The translations under genes were made by a program, and so were the position numbers. A DNA stretch of 53,896 nt from Aquificaceae bacterium (GTDB taxonomy: Bacteria > Aquificota > Aquificia > Aquificales > Aquificaceae). The stretch is from positions 1 through 53,896 of the forward strand of contig JALSHV010000025.1 of NCBI GenBank assembly GCA_026981975.1, in the 5' to 3' direction. Below, piece after piece: positions 18,010-24,425 of the stretch. Within the stretch, counting starts at the first letter, position 1. Every line of letters starts with the position of its first letter. A model generated the notes under the pieces. The model saw only the letters and a program-made list of their open reading frames with translations, did no database searches and was not told the origin of the DNA.

Positions 18010-19098
18010 GTGAAGGAGATAGAAAAGCTCAGGAAACGTATAGACAGTATAGATAGGGAAATTCTCAAACTGTTAAATGAACGTGCAAAAATTGCACGCC
18101 GGATAGGAAATATAAAAAAAGAAAACAACTTAGAAATCCACGTTCCTGAAAGGGAGCGTGCTATTTTTGAAAAAATACTAAATCTCAACAAAAAGGAGTT
18201 CGGTGAGGAATTTCCTTCAGAAGCTCTTGTTCATATATACAGAGAAATAATCTCCGCCTGTCTTTCCCTTGAAAAACCTTTAAGAATAGCTTATTTAGGT
18301 CCTAAGGCTACCTTTACCCATCAAGCGGCGTTGGAGTATTTTGGCTTTTCAGCTCAGTATTTACCTTGTTCTACCATAAGAGATGTGTTTGCAGAAGTGG
18401 AAACAGGACAGGCAGATTACGGAGTAGTTCCTGTGGAAAACACTATAGAAGGTGTTGTCAATTATACCCTTGATATGTTTCTGGAGAGTGATCTTAAAAT
18501 TTCGGGGGAAATTGTTATACCGATAAGTTTGCATTTGCTTTCTACTTGTGATCGTATTTCCTGTGTTGAGAAGGTTTTTTCTCACAGGGTAGCGCTCGGA
18601 CAATGTAAAAAGTGGCTTGAGAAAAATCTTCCCCACGCACGTCTTGTAGAGACAGAAAGCACAGCTAAGGCGTGTGAGATAGCTCTTGAAGAAGAAAAAA
18701 CAGCCGCTGTCGCCAGCGAAGCGGCAAGCTACACCTATCACCTAAATGTGCTTGCAAGGAACATTCAGGAAAGTGGGGATAACTTTACCCGCTTTTTAAT
18801 AATTTCAAAAAGAAAAATGAAACCCACCGGTAAAGATAAAACAAGTCTTATATTTGCAGTAAAAGATGAACCCGGTGCTCTCTACAAAGCTCTGGAGGCT
18901 TTTTATAAGGAAAGAGTAAATTTGACTAAGATAGAGTCAAGACCCTCAAGGCGTCGTGCGTGGGATTACGTCTTTTTTGTGGATTTAGAAGGACATCAGG
19001 AGGAGGAAAGGGTAAAAAGAACCCTTGAAGAGCTTAAGTCCAGAACCCAGATGGTAAAAATTCTTGGATCTTATCCTAAGGCACTTCTAAGGGAATAG
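18010..19098 (+). CDS. pheA: Bifunctional chorismate mutase / prephenate dehydratase (P-protein)
   Basis: A 362-residue enzyme starting with GTG. Residues 1-85 form an AroQ-type chorismate mutase helix bundle (LRKRIDSIDREILKLLNERA). Residues ~92-270 are prephenate dehydratase (IAYLGPKATFTHQAAL, the VPVENTIEG motif, and GDNFTRFLII). Residues ~275-352 are an ACT domain with the phenylalanine-binding ESRPSR motif. It converts chorismate through prephenate to phenylpyruvate in phenylalanine synthesis and is probably feedback inhibited by phenylalanine through the ACT domain. No Shine-Dalgarno is visible; the -10-like TAAAAT just upstream suggests a short-leader mRNA. The 3' end overlaps the convergent TolC-like gene by 12 bp. 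Confidence 0.95.
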   Translation: MKEIEKLRKRIDSIDREILKLLNERAKIARRIGNIKKENNLEIHVPERERAIFEKILNLNKKEFGEEFPSEALVHIYREIISACLSLEKPLRIAYLGPKATFTHQAALEYFGFSAQYLPCSTIRDVFAEVETGQADYGVVPVENTIEGVVNYTLDMFLESDLKISGEIVIPISLHLLSTCDRISCVEKVFSHRVALGQCKKWLEKNLPHARLVETESTAKACEIALEEEKTAAVASEAASYTYHLNVLARNIQESGDNFTRFLIISKRKMKPTGKDKTSLIFAVKDEPGALYKALEAFYKERVNLTKIESRPSRRRAWDYVFFVDLEGHQEEERVKRTLEELKSRTQMVKILGSYPKALLRE

Positions 19099-20337
19099 TC
19101 CAAGTCCCAGTAACTTTTTCAAATCTGCAACTATAACGTTGTAGTTGAATACAGATTCAAGATACAGTATTTTTGAATTCTCATAGTTTTTTCTGGCATC
19201 AAGTAACTCTACTTGATTACCCACCCCGCTGATATATCTTTCCGTGGCGAATCTAAGGGATTCTTCCGCAGCTATCAAGCTCTCCTTACGGGCTTTTATC
19301 TCTTCCTTTACACTCTTTAAACGCAGAAGAAGGGATTTTAACTCGTTAGATAGCTTCACTTTTACAAAATCCAATTCTCTTTCAGCTTTTTTCTTCTCAA
19401 TTTTTTCCTGCATTACTTTTGCAATACGCGCCCCTCCTTCGTAAACAGGTATATCTACCTTAAGCCCCAAATTGTAACCATGTCTAAAGTCTTCTTTAAG
19501 TCTTCCCTGTTTAAAGTCCATTATGTTTTCCCAGTTGTAGTTGAGAAAAAAGGAAACTTGTGGAAAAAACTCCGATTTCTGAACTTCCGCAGAAAGTTGT
19601 TTAACTCTTATGGTTTTTCGGAGTATCTGAAGAGTAAGATTGTTTTTTTCAAGAACCCTTAAAGGATTCTCCAGTTGTATATACGCTAATCCAAACTCTC
19701 CCTCTGGGTGTATGTTTTTCTTCAAGCCGAGAAAACTCTTTAAGCTGTTAAGGGAAACTTTCAGTTCTGCTTCCGCTTTTATGAGATCCGCTTCCGCTTG
19801 TCTTAACTGAGCTTTGGCTCTCAGGAATTCGTATTTAGGTATTATCCCTTTTTTGTATTTTTCTTCCACAAAGTTGAAGTATTTTTTCCAATAAGAGAGT
19901 GATTCTCTTTTTTCCTTGAAAATTTCCCTTCTTAGAAGAACAGCCCAGAAGAGCTTTTCCACTTCTGCAAGTAGGGAAACTTTTACTTCTTCAAGGAAAA
20001 GCTTCTGAAGTTCTTTGTTTGCTTGTGCTAATTTAAGAGCTGTCCATACAGCTCTGTTGAAAATAGGTTGGTTGAGCGATAGGGAAGCTGAGTATTTATC
20101 TGGTGGCACAAAAGCAGATATATAATTTTTATCCCACCTTATATAGGTGGCGGAAAAGTTCAAAGTGGGGAGGATTTTTGCCCTTATCTCCTTTACTTTC
20201 TCTTCTAATTTTTTTAAATCTAAATTACCTTTAATTGCCTCAATATGGTTCTTCAAAGCTAGAAGCTTTGCTTCTTTAAGGGAAAGAGAAAAAGCTACTG
20301 AAGCTGTAAGAAGTGTAAAGATTAAAAGGAATTTCAT
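19087..20337 (-). CDS. TolC-family outer-membrane efflux channel
   Basis: A 416-residue protein with a signal peptide (FLLIFTLLTASVAFS) and the repeated long-helix and strand pattern of TolC proteins: LKEAKLLALKNHIEA at the start, coiled stretches such as LRQAEADLIKAEAEL, and the closing RYISGVGNQVELLDARKNYENSK that is typical of the family. It should form the trimeric outer-membrane duct of the efflux system. It is translated after the adaptor gene with a 4-bp overlap. The pump is divergent. Confidence 0.92.
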   Translation of the reverse strand: MKFLLIFTLLTASVAFSLSLKEAKLLALKNHIEAIKGNLDLKKLEEKVKEIRAKILPTLNFSATYIRWDKNYISAFVPPDKYSASLSLNQPIFNRAVWTALKLAQANKELQKLFLEEVKVSLLAEVEKLFWAVLLRREIFKEKRESLSYWKKYFNFVEEKYKKGIIPKYEFLRAKAQLRQAEADLIKAEAELKVSLNSLKSFLGLKKNIHPEGEFGLAYIQLENPLRVLEKNNLTLQILRKTIRVKQLSAEVQKSEFFPQVSFFLNYNWENIMDFKQGRLKEDFRHGYNLGLKVDIPVYEGGARIAKVMQEKIEKKKAERELDFVKVKLSNELKSLLLRLKSVKEEIKARKESLIAAEESLRFATERYISGVGNQVELLDARKNYENSKILYLESVFNYNVIVADLKKLLGLGLFP

Positions 20338-21386
20338 TGCTCAACAGCTTTAGCTCCTTCATACAAAAAAAGAAACCCCTCTACAATCACTTTGTCTCCT
20401 TCCTTAAGAGGTGCTTTTACGTATAGTCTACCCTCTTCATGATACAGAACTTCTACAGGGACTTTTACAACTCTTGAGTTTTTAACAACCCATACAAAAC
20501 TCTGACGTTGGCTTAATAAAACAGCTTCTTCCGGTAGAGAAATGGCTTTTATCTCTCTAACAGGAAAGGAAACCTCTCCGTAAACACCCGCTTTTAAAAA
20601 AGGACTTTTCTTACTTATCAAAGCTTTAACTGTAAAAAGTCTATTTTTATCCGCATAAGGAGAAATATAACTTATTCTACTTGTCAGTTCTTGATTACCG
20701 ATTTTTATTTTCACTGGTGTTCCGAGTTTCAAAGAAAGAGCTATCTCCTGAGGCACTTTGAAGACAAATCTCAGAGGAGATGTTTTAAGAACTTTTAAGA
20801 TTTCTCTTTGGGGGGTAACGTAGTCTCCTACGTTTACCATTCTTTCAGCTATAATACCTTCAACAGGACTTTTAATTTTTGTTTTTTCAAGATCTAATTT
20901 TCTGTTTTCCAACTTAACTTTGAGACTCTCTATCCGAGCTTTCAGAACTTCAGCGTGTGTTTGGATCTCTTCAAATTCTTCTTTACTTATCAGCTCTTTC
21001 TTGTAAAACTCCTTACGCCGTTCTAAAATAGCTTTTTGATTTTCATATTCCCTTTGAGCTTGTTTAAGTTCCCATAGTATCTCCTCGTAGGCTTTTCTGT
21101 AAGAAGAATCTTCTATTTCTGCAAGAAGATCTCCTTTTTTTACTGTGTCTCCTTCTTTAACTAATATGCGAATAATTCTACCACTTACTTCAGGTCTTAT
21201 ACTTAATTCATAAACAGCTTCAAGGAAACCCCCTGTTCTGTAGTTCAAAGTGACTGTTTGATAACTAACCCGCTGGGTTTTTACTTTAAAAACTTTCTCT
21301 TGAACCTGTTTTTGAGCTGATTTTTCTTTACAGGAAATTAATATCAGAAAAAGAGCAAGGAGTATAGCTACTGACTGACTGGTCAT
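20334..21386 (-). CDS. RND efflux periplasmic adaptor lipoprotein (membrane fusion protein)
   Basis: A 350-residue protein starting MTSQSVAILLALF, with a lipobox LISC (Cys19). A biotinyl-lipoyl half (SGRIIRILVKEGDTVKKGDLLAEIED) is followed by an alpha-hairpin at about 85-150, the second lipoyl half (IKSPVEGIIAERMVNVGDYV) and beta-barrel domains (VPQEIALSLKLGTPVKI). This is the classic MFP layout linking the RND pump to the TolC channel. The frame runs open further upstream, but that part is antisense to the pump gene. The ATG at 21386 is the correct start because the signal sequence begins there. Confidence 0.92.
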   Translation of the reverse strand: MTSQSVAILLALFLILISCKEKSAQKQVQEKVFKVKTQRVSYQTVTLNYRTGGFLEAVYELSIRPEVSGRIIRILVKEGDTVKKGDLLAEIEDSSYRKAYEEILWELKQAQREYENQKAILERRKEFYKKELISKEEFEEIQTHAEVLKARIESLKVKLENRKLDLEKTKIKSPVEGIIAERMVNVGDYVTPQREILKVLKTSPLRFVFKVPQEIALSLKLGTPVKIKIGNQELTSRISYISPYADKNRLFTVKALISKKSPFLKAGVYGEVSFPVREIKAISLPEEAVLLSQRQSFVWVVKNSRVVKVPVEVLYHEEGRLYVKAPLKEGDKVIVEGFLFLYEGAKAVEQ

Positions 21387-21387
21387 A

Positions 21388-21405
21388 GAGCATATTATAA
21401 TGCTC
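21388..21405. promoter_or_regulatory. Symmetric bidirectional promoter/operator of the RND efflux genes
   Basis: The 21 bp between divergent start codons contain GAGCAT-attata-ATGCTC, a 6-bp inverted repeat. Nearly centred on it is the perfect palindrome ATTATAAT (21394-21401), which gives TATAAT on both strands. On + it ends 6 nt before the pump ATG at 21408, placing the expected start on the A of ATG. On - it ends 7 nt before the adaptor ATG at 21386. Both mRNAs should be leaderless or have a 1-nt leader. The outer repeat could bind a repressor that blocks both directions. Confidence 0.6.
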
Positions 21406-21407
21406 CT

Positions 21408-24400
21408 ATGTATAGATTTTTTATAAAGCGTCCTGTAACAACCCTGATGCTTACTGTGGCTTTTGTAATGTTGGGTTACTACGCTTATAGAAACATAGCT
21501 GTTGACAGATTTCCCGATGTGGATTTTCCTATGGTAACCATCACAACCACTTACGAAGGTGCTGATTCCGAAACAGTAGATGCTGTAATAACAAGAGTTA
21601 TAGAAGAAGATTTGGCTCGTATAAGCGGGATAGACGCTATAGTTTCCAAAAGTTACGCAGGACTTTCCAGTATTACGGTAATATTTAACCTTGATAAAGA
21701 TATTGATACAGCGGCTCAAGAAGTAAGAGATGTAGCTCAAAGGGTTTTTAAAAGATTACCTGTAGGAACTGATCCGCCCTCTGTTAGAAAGATAAACACT
21801 TCCTTAGCTCCCATAATGGCAGTGTTAGTTCACGGAGATGCTGATTACGATACTGTTTCCTTTTTTGCCGACAAGGTTGTTAAAAGGGAATTTGAAAGAC
21901 TAAAAGGTGTTGGGGAAATACATCTCGGAGGGTTCAGAGATAAAGTTATGTGGATAAGATTAGATCCGGATAAGATGCACGCTCGCGGTGTGACTGTTGT
22001 GGAAGTTTTGGAAGCTTTGAGAAAGAACCATATAAGAAAACCCGCAGGAACAGTTTACAGTAAAAATAGAGAGTATATACTTCGTATAAGAGGTAATCTG
22101 ACCTCCTCACAGGAAATAAATGATCTTATACTGCGAGATAATTTAAGACTAAGGGATATAGGTTACGCAGAGTTTTCCTACGATGAACAGAGAAATGCTG
22201 TTCGGTTTAACCTAAGGTCTGCGGTTGCTCTTATAGTCTATAAGGAAAGTAAAGCCAATACAGTAGAAACAGCGAATAGAATTTGGGAAAAGATAGAAGC
22301 ACTTAGAAAAATAGCTCCTGCGGGTATAAACATAGACGTAAACTATGACGCTTCTGTTTTCATTCGTAAAAGTGTTAACGATGCGGTATTTGAAATAATA
22401 GCGGGTAGTTTGCTCACCGCTTTTGTAGTCTTCCTTTTTCTGGGCAACTTAAAACTCACCTTCATACCTGTATCTGCAATTCCCGTATCAATCTTAGGAA
22501 CAGTTTTTGTGCTCTATATAACGGGAAATTCATTGAACACTATGAGCTTACTGGCTCTTGCTGTTGCGGTAGGTATAGTGATAGACGATGCAATTGTTGT
22601 TCTTGAAAGTATATACAGAAGAAATGAAGAAGGGTTTAAAACCACAGAGGCAGCGGAAAAGGGAACAAAAGTTGTCATATTTGCTCTCCTTGCTTCTACT
22701 GCTTCCCTTATAGTTATCTTTATCCCTGTTCTCTTTCTGAAAGGTCCTGTGGGAAAGTTCTTCGGAGTCTTTACCTTGACGCTGATAACAGCTATAGCTA
22801 TATCCTTTTTAGTTTCTGTATCCCTTACTCCTATGCTTTCCGCACGATTGGTAAGTGTAGGAGAAAAAAACTTGTTTATGAAAGCATACGAAGTTTTTGA
22901 GAGGTATTTTGATAAGCTCCTGCGCTGGAGTCTTGACAGGAAAATAGTGATCTTGTTAGTTTCCTTAGGAACACTCATAGGTGGATTTTACTTAGCTTCC
23001 CTTACAAAGAAGGAGTTTTTTCCTCTTGTAGATGAAGGTAGATTTGTTATACGTTTTGAAACACCCTTAGGTTCTTCCTTTGAATTTACCAACAGGAAAG
23101 CTAAGGAGCTGGAAAAAATCCTAATGGCTAATCCTTATGTTTTGAGATACGGCATGGCTGTGGGGGAGGGACTTATAAGTCCTACTGTAAACGGTGGTAT
23201 GTTTTTTGTAACCCTTATAGATAAAAAGAACAGACCTCACCAGCGGGTGGTTATGAACATGATAAGAGAAGAAGTAAAAAACCTTAAAGATTTAAGGGTA
23301 TCTGTTGATGTTCCTTCCGTTGTGGGTGCTCACAGTGCAAGACAAACTGATATTCAATACGTTATAAGAGGAGATTCTCTTGAAGAGCTTTCCCGCATAG
23401 CTTTTGGACTCAGAAATTTTTTGGAAAGGAGCGGTGGGTATTCAGATATAGATACAGATGTAAGGATAAATCAGCCTCAGGTAGAAATAACAGTAAACAG
23501 AAGAAAACTCGGTGATCTGGGTATAAGTGTTGAAGACGTAGCTCTTACTGTAAACGCTCTTTTCGGTAAACTGCGGGTTGGAGTCTATGAGTTAGGATCC
23601 GAGAGCTACAACATATACGTAAAAGCTAAGGAGGATTTTTTGAAAACCTATGAAAACTTGAAAAGAATTTACGTGAGATCAAAGACAACAGGAGATCTTG
23701 TTCCCCTTTCTTACCTTGTGGACTATAAACTCTCCTCTGGGTATCCAGTTATAAATCGTTACAATCGCCAGTATTCTTTAACTCTTTCTGCAAATCTTAA
23801 AGATAAAAGCATGGGTGAAGCTGTGGAAGAAATAGAATCCTTCTTGGAAGGAACTCTTCCGCCGGGATATACCTATGAAGCAGCAGGTCAAACAAAGGAA
23901 TTCCGCAGAGCTTTTGAAGGATTGACAACGGCGCTCTTAATAGCTGTAGCAGGAGTCTATATGGTTCTTGCATCGCTTTTTGAAAGCTTTGTGCATCCTT
24001 TTACCGTATTGCTTACACTTCCTTTGATGATTTCCGGTGTTTTTGGTCTTCTTTATCTGACAAATACAAGCTTGAGTGTCCCTTCTTACTTCGGTGTTAT
24101 TCTCTTGGTGGGAATAGTAGCAAGGGATTCTGTTCTTTTCATAGAACGTATAGTTCAACTCCGTAAGGAAGGGGAGAATGTCAGGGAGGCAATAATGAAA
24201 GCTCGTAGGGAAAGGCTAAGACCTATACTGATGACTACTGTAACGATAATCTTCGCCCTTTTACCTGCCGCTTTAGGTTTAACAGAAGGCTCAGAGCTCA
24301 GAAAACCTCTTGCTTTAGCGGTGATAGGAGGACTGTTAACAGCTCTGCCACTTAGTCTCTTTGTTATTCCGGCTCTTTACGAGTTCTTTGAAAAATTCAG

Positions 24401-24425
24401 GGTTTTGAAAAAAGCCAATCCTTAA
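21408..24425 (+). CDS. RND-family efflux pump, inner-membrane transporter (AcrB/HAE1-like)
   Basis: A 1005-residue protein starting MYRFFIKRPVTTLMLTVAFVMLGYYA. It has the duplicated RND plan: twelve membrane spans and two large periplasmic loops (after TM1 and TM7). The TM4 signature AVAVGIVIDDAIVVLESIYRR has the two aspartates of the proton relay, and the final repeat has LVGIVARDSVLFIERIV. This fits hydrophobic or amphiphilic compound exporters rather than heavy-metal pumps, but the substrate cannot be read from sequence. It pairs with the divergent adaptor and TolC genes. There is no ribosome binding site; a TATAAT box ends 6 nt before the ATG. Confidence 0.94.
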   Translation: MYRFFIKRPVTTLMLTVAFVMLGYYAYRNIAVDRFPDVDFPMVTITTTYEGADSETVDAVITRVIEEDLARISGIDAIVSKSYAGLSSITVIFNLDKDIDTAAQEVRDVAQRVFKRLPVGTDPPSVRKINTSLAPIMAVLVHGDADYDTVSFFADKVVKREFERLKGVGEIHLGGFRDKVMWIRLDPDKMHARGVTVVEVLEALRKNHIRKPAGTVYSKNREYILRIRGNLTSSQEINDLILRDNLRLRDIGYAEFSYDEQRNAVRFNLRSAVALIVYKESKANTVETANRIWEKIEALRKIAPAGINIDVNYDASVFIRKSVNDAVFEIIAGSLLTAFVVFLFLGNLKLTFIPVSAIPVSILGTVFVLYITGNSLNTMSLLALAVAVGIVIDDAIVVLESIYRRNEEGFKTTEAAEKGTKVVIFALLASTASLIVIFIPVLFLKGPVGKFFGVFTLTLITAIAISFLVSVSLTPMLSARLVSVGEKNLFMKAYEVFERYFDKLLRWSLDRKIVILLVSLGTLIGGFYLASLTKKEFFPLVDEGRFVIRFETPLGSSFEFTNRKAKELEKILMANPYVLRYGMAVGEGLISPTVNGGMFFVTLIDKKNRPHQRVVMNMIREEVKNLKDLRVSVDVPSVVGAHSARQTDIQYVIRGDSLEELSRIAFGLRNFLERSGGYSDIDTDVRINQPQVEITVNRRKLGDLGISVEDVALTVNALFGKLRVGVYELGSESYNIYVKAKEDFLKTYENLKRIYVRSKTTGDLVPLSYLVDYKLSSGYPVINRYNRQYSLTLSANLKDKSMGEAVEEIESFLEGTLPPGYTYEAAGQTKEFRRAFEGLTTALLIAVAGVYMVLASLFESFVHPFTVLLTLPLMISGVFGLLYLTNTSLSVPSYFGVILLVGIVARDSVLFIERIVQLRKEGENVREAIMKARRERLRPILMTTVTIIFALLPAALGLTEGSELRKPLALAVIGGLLTALPLSLFVIPALYEFFEKFRVLKKANP

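Follow-up and report, generated by a model that had tools for sequence, protein, structure and literature searches.

A candidate symmetric -10 promoter for divergent, putatively leaderless efflux genes in an Aquificaceae genus, with a putative TetR-type operator

In a heat-loving bacterium of the Aquificaceae type, the genes for an RND-type efflux permease (the pump) and its periplasmic adaptor diverge across a gap of only 21 bp (21387-21407, AGAGCATATTATAATGCTCCT; positions are those of the window, the whole stretch of 53,896 nucleotides that was analysed). The gap holds a self-complementary octamer, ATTATAAT, at 21394-21401, which places TATAAT on both strands. Since the octamer is invariant in all 14 of the same-genus loci in which pump and adaptor are still divergent neighbours, and since its short spacings to the two start codons are constrained, a symmetric, bidirectional and doubly leaderless promoter is well supported on comparative grounds. 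We regard two-way use of the octamer, taken by itself, as highly probable, and the full model, in which a TetR-family repressor also acts on a putative operator, TGACTGACTGGTCATA, as probable.

The divergent locus and its probable shared -10 element

The genome of this bacterium comprises 1.61 Mb in 29 contigs, and some of the counts given below come from a 454-kb sample of it (~28%). The three components of an HAE1-type RND tripartite efflux system, namely an ACR_tran permease, an MFP adaptor and an OEP channel, are found together at the locus, the features of which are as follows:

19087..20337, minus strand: TolC-family outer-membrane channel, behind the adaptor (OEP, E=6.7e-56)
20334..21386, minus strand: RND periplasmic adaptor lipoprotein, 350 aa, MTSQSVAILLALFLILISC start (TIGR01730 RND_mfp, E=2.9e-75; lipobox read by eye)
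21371..21376, plus strand: weak -35-like CTGACT for the pump, with a 19-bp spacer (18 or 19 in relatives), predicted from alignment
21372..21387, no strand: putative TetR/FadR-type operator TGACTGACTGGTCATA, with invariant arms TGAC...GTCATA (conservation; motif recurrence)
21394..21399, minus strand: -10 hexamer TATAAT for adaptor-tolC, 7 nt before the ATG at 21386, predicted 1-nt leader
21396..21401, plus strand: -10 hexamer TATAAT for the pump, 6 nt before the ATG at 21408, predicted 0-nt leader
21408..24425, plus strand: RND-type efflux permease (pump), 1005 aa, MYRFFIKRPV start (ORF; ACR_tran, E=1e-252)

Both gene starts are kept among same-genus orthologs: the MYxFFI start of the pump aligns, and the adaptor retains its start codon and Thr-2. 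The channel gene overlaps the adaptor stop, and we infer that adaptor and tolC lie on one transcript.

The palindrome and its spacings are read directly from the sequence. The original prediction, that a self-complementary octamer supplies TATAAT to both strands at 6 and 7 nt from the two ATGs, is borne out by the coordinates; the two hexamers overlap by 4 bp, on opposite strands, as in a symmetric -10 promoter. An outer GAGCAT/ATGCTC repeat had been proposed alongside, and is not a conserved element, as its columns vary among relatives. In the 454-kb sample, the arrangement CAT-N5..9-ATTATAAT-N5..9-ATG has a single occurrence, at the gap itself. From the -10-to-ATG distances, the predicted transcription start sites are 21 bp apart.

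The -35-like CTGACT of the pump shares its TGAC with the putative operator, and no recognisable -35 is present upstream of the reverse TATAAT in the adaptor direction. Given this, and the weak, long-spacer -35 of the pump, the activity of the two directions may be very unequal. A standard sigma-70 scan at the gap returned CTGACT-16-TATTAT as its sole candidate, and the region scores fewer promoter-like sites than shuffles; the evidence for a promoter therefore rests on conservation.

Leaderless genes have been predicted to make up 20.7-32.4% of the genes in two Aquificae (PMC3160421). Across the 454-kb sample, TATAAT has a peak 6-10 nt upstream of the first ATG of long open reading frames (21 cases vs a background of ~0.5 per position); the Shine-Dalgarno peak, at 5-9 nt, is larger. 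Both sides of the gap have the sequence character of leaderless (TA-led) genes, with a -10 at 6 or 7 nt and no Shine-Dalgarno site. An Aquificales paper (PMC4227106) contains no leader or start-site data for the pump locus.

Conservation within the genus and contrasts beyond it

Sixteen of the 17 same-genus genomes have a pump ortholog, G015 yielding weak hits only. An alignment (A1) was made of the 14 same-genus loci in which pump and adaptor are adjacent, including that of G013, whose contig ends just inside the adaptor start. Between the coding parts, two blocks only are invariant in this alignment: TGAC-N6-GTCATA and ATTATAAT. On the pump tree, all 8 octamer columns show zero changes over 14 species; in the comparison set, none of the 112 fourfold-degenerate pump sites (0/112) is invariant, with a mean of 5.3 changes over 14 species. 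The -10 lies 5-7 nt from the pump ATG and 6-7 nt from the adaptor ATG in these relatives, gaps too short for a Shine-Dalgarno site, and these spacings are held among species despite indels of 1-2 nt on both sides of the octamer. Alignment of the same gap in relatives, which had been named as a check on the original prediction, is therefore strongly positive as to octamer and spacings, and the comparison lends support to the proposal that the two genes share a symmetric -10, that transcription diverges from it and that the mRNAs on either side are leaderless or nearly so. Octamer and operator both appear to be kept by selection in these relatives.

The same comparison bears on whether the octamer serves one gene or two. 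It is unlikely that ATTATAAT drives the leaderless pump only, with a leadered adaptor-tolC mRNA starting from a promoter inside the pump gene and using AGGAGC as its ribosome site. Such an arrangement would fit with the conservation of the pump-strand TATAAT, the part that is shared across genera, with the adaptor direction having no -35, and with the presence of the purine-rich AGGAGC on the adaptor strand (21407-21402). AGGAGC was, however, rejected as a Shine-Dalgarno site, because it ends 15 nt before the adaptor ATG, which is too far, and is not conserved. Moreover, the two octamer bases that only the adaptor strand requires, 21394 A and 21395 T, show zero changes in 14 species, and the adaptor ATG is held at 6-7 nt from the reverse TATAAT through the indels. 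These observations argue for a two-way -10.

Other genera depart from this arrangement. In g6 a separate TATAAT-like -10 stands just ahead of the adaptor ATG. Of four g11 genomes, three have the adaptor at a distance of 415-540 nt, and the stretch taken from the fourth (G039) yielded none; in g9 the upstream neighbour of the pump is not the adaptor. At the loci of these three genera (14/14) the pump keeps TATAAT and the octamer begins with G (GTTATAAT or GATATAAT), which destroys the adaptor-strand hexamer, a contrast among genera that rests on few independent lineages. The operator abutting the -10 in g6, g9 and g11 may alone explain the G before TTATAAT. In g3 (three genomes; L021, L093, L023) ATTATAAT is retained although the adaptor strand carries a further -10, TTATAATCATTTCATG, and one g5 locus likewise retains ATTATAAT with a separate adaptor -10, so that the correlation with symmetry is not strict. 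Genus g3 is a possible intermediate between two separate promoters and one shared promoter, and comparison with g6 suggests that two once separate -10 elements may have collapsed to form the shared octamer. No close ortholog of the pump was found in genus g10.

Two same-genus genomes, G008 and G014, have neither octamer nor operator upstream of pump or adaptor, and in G014 the pump follows another gene. They were rejected as contradicting conservation, because in both of them pump and adaptor are on different contigs; they serve as controls instead, to which assembly error may contribute.

A putative operator over the adaptor start codon

The original prediction also held that the minimal 21-bp element itself co-regulates the pump. 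This part is not supported: the regulatory site would be a putative operator at 21372-21387, beyond the coordinates of the proposed element, which overlaps the adaptor start codon. TGACTGACTGGTCATA contains that codon (CAT, 21384-21386) together with codons 2-5, and sits in the spacer between the -35 and the -10 of the pump, so that a putative palindromic operator overlaps the promoter as at a TetR-regulated RND locus. Of 58 pump upstream regions, 42 carry the motif with up to 2 mismatches; among shuffles the figure is 1.5%. Exact matches to ACYGAYNNRTCRGT occur at three sites only in the bacterium's own genome, these being the starts of two TetR genes, tetB and tetE, and of an EmrB-type MFS gene. 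The pump's own site is not among them; it is an imperfect palindrome, the embedded ATG having changed its second half, and its exact register is ambiguous. The tetB and tetE sites had been seen before the consensus was fixed, and every ambiguity in the consensus was needed for the pump sites alone.

Within the genus the block TGAC...GTCATA coincides with codons 1-5 of the adaptor, and it might be conserved only as coding sequence for the adaptor N-terminus (MTxxS). We consider this very unlikely. The third position of Ser-5 (TCA) is invariant, as against 0/112 of the fourfold pump sites; the motif recurs on TetR start codons; and a matching palindrome, ACYGAYNNRTCRGT, adjoins the pump -10 outside coding sequence in g2, g6, g9, g11 and f3, the copies in g6, g9, g11 and f3 telling against a purely coding role. 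That the octamer itself is a protein-binding site, forming the second half of the operator rather than a two-way -10, is more improbable still. It does lie directly beside a TetR-type operator, and palindromes are typical of operators. However, in many genera the pump ATG has a perfect consensus -10 at exactly the distance of a promoter, even where it is non-palindromic, and the spacing between octamer and operator shifts by 1-2 bp between same-genus species, unlike that of a rigid composite site.

Family f3 (L085, L061, L086, L065, L087-L089) has the same operator and pump, but in leadered form. There the operator encloses a TTGACT -35, TATAAT stands ~32 nt ahead of the pump ATG, the leader of ~30 nt has a GGAG ribosome site, and a TetR gene lies downstream of the pump. 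As the f3 pump is leadered and has GGAG, the predicted leaderless expression of the present locus would be a feature of its lineage.

Five TetR proteins are encoded in the bacterium's own genome. The tetB start codon lies in GACTGAC-ATG-TCAGTT, which is conserved in orthologs read from their start; the perfect palindrome ACTGACATGTCAGT is centred on this codon (L050, G000:C10:201281-201294; L110-L121), with one-base variants in two species among the same-genus orthologs, and from its sequence tetB looks like a gene autoregulated through a start-codon operator. At tetE (L053, G000:C14:58995-59008; L123-L135), TAACTG-ATG-RGTCAGTCA over the start codon is conserved in 12 orthologs, and with a TATATT/TATTAT-like -10 ~7-8 nt before its ATG the gene is apparently leaderless. 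An EmrB-type MFS exporter (L095 reverse strand near 1500; G000:C4:61814-61831) starts, with MSQS, inside the 18-bp tetE site TAACTGATGAGTCAGTCA, which suggests a second, TetE-controlled pump. The ortholog matches for tetE in G007 (L131) and for tetB in G001 (L113) span two in-frame stops and one stop, respectively; each is possibly a pseudogene, or a match running past the gene end.

TetB and TetE have as their best NCBIfam match the FadR model NF053878 (E=1.2e-26 and 1.2e-16), and with 93.7 and 61.1 bits against an equivalog cut-off of 200 they are not FadR. No TetR gene is adjacent to the pump locus among the open reading frames of the window, TetB and TetE being encoded elsewhere. In g6, g11 and f3, TetR genes are present inside the pump cluster, and mostly score best to TetB. 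This, together with the motif at the tetB and tetE starts, points to TetB or TetE as the probable repressor.

Proposed mechanism and relation to known systems

In the model that we favour, the gap would be a bidirectional promoter for the housekeeping sigma factor, in which ATTATAAT offers a consensus -10 to RNA polymerase either way. With initiation ~7 bp downstream, the A of the pump ATG would itself be +1, while in the other direction +1 would precede the adaptor ATG by 1 nt, and both divergent mRNAs (pump; adaptor-tolC) would be translated leaderless, because no Shine-Dalgarno site fits. A homodimeric TetR repressor of the FadR-like subgroup (TetB or TetE) would bind TGACTGACTGGTCATA. Since this site takes in the -35/spacer region of the pump as well as the adaptor transcript's first 16 nt, a single dimer bound there would block transcription in both directions, and one binding event would silence pump, adaptor and channel until the repressor is released by an inducer, probably an acyl compound or a substrate of the pump. 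Judged from sequence comparison, co-regulation most likely proceeds via such a TetB/TetE-type repressor, and not via the -10 alone. A wider reading seems possible, though short of probable: that start-codon operators are used in the genus, with TetR-type repressors binding palindromes that contain the AUG of leaderless genes, together with a perfectly palindromic consensus -10 maintained by selection, so that a single promoter and a single operator would fix the pump:adaptor-TolC ratio.

In bidirectional symmetric -10 promoters, opposed -10 elements overlap and starts are 7-25 bp apart, across prokaryotes (Warman et al. 2021 via PMC10268837; Warman et al. 2026, PMC12825309); at symmetric -10 elements, divergent starts are mostly 18 bp apart, and also 10 or 23 (PMC12825309). 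The present site likewise has two opposed, overlapping -10 elements. The known cases mostly share an imperfect -10 with starts 18 bp apart, whereas here the palindrome is a perfect one of 8 bp and the predicted spacing is 21 bp; unlike in those cases, both products are coding and, by prediction, leaderless, and the species of a genus have the symmetry in common. The best-studied example, the Escherichia coli promoter PacrA/acrR, is also a bidirectional promoter at an RND pump locus, serving acrAB and a TetR repressor gene and repressed in both directions (PMC12825309). One of its arms is the repressor gene, with pump and adaptor sharing an operon, whereas here the arms are pump and adaptor-tolC and, in the Aquificaceae genus, no repressor gene is adjacent.

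A leaderless operon under a TetR-type operator is known from Rhodobacter sphaeroides, where the mRNA start of acuR-acuI-dddL was mapped to the AUG by RACE and the operator lies over the promoter (PMC3017554). That operon is one-directional and belongs to a different regulon; its operator shares sequence with the promoter, whereas in the Aquificaceae the start codon lies within the sites. In the TA-led genes of Aquificae (PMC3160421), TATAAT is ~12 bp before the start codon, as here, but the genes surveyed are single and do not share the element two ways. With FadR-type TetR regulators (NF053878; PDB 3whb, 1vi0) the locus has a palindromic operator in common, the likely target here being efflux. 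Each ingredient is thus known, be it the symmetric -10 promoter, the leaderless Aquificae gene or the RND pump under TetR control; what would be new is their combination with a consensus-palindromic -10.

It was maps of transcription starts that recently brought bacterial bidirectional promoters to notice, and these promoters raise the question of how far their symmetry reflects function and how far it simply follows from the -10 consensus. Since the bases for the second direction are invariant in this genus, and are changed where the second gene bypasses the site, selection for bidirectionality becomes directly testable. The locus also indicates that a regulated divergent promoter can be as small as ~36 bp including its operator, with both mRNAs predicted to start at the AUG.
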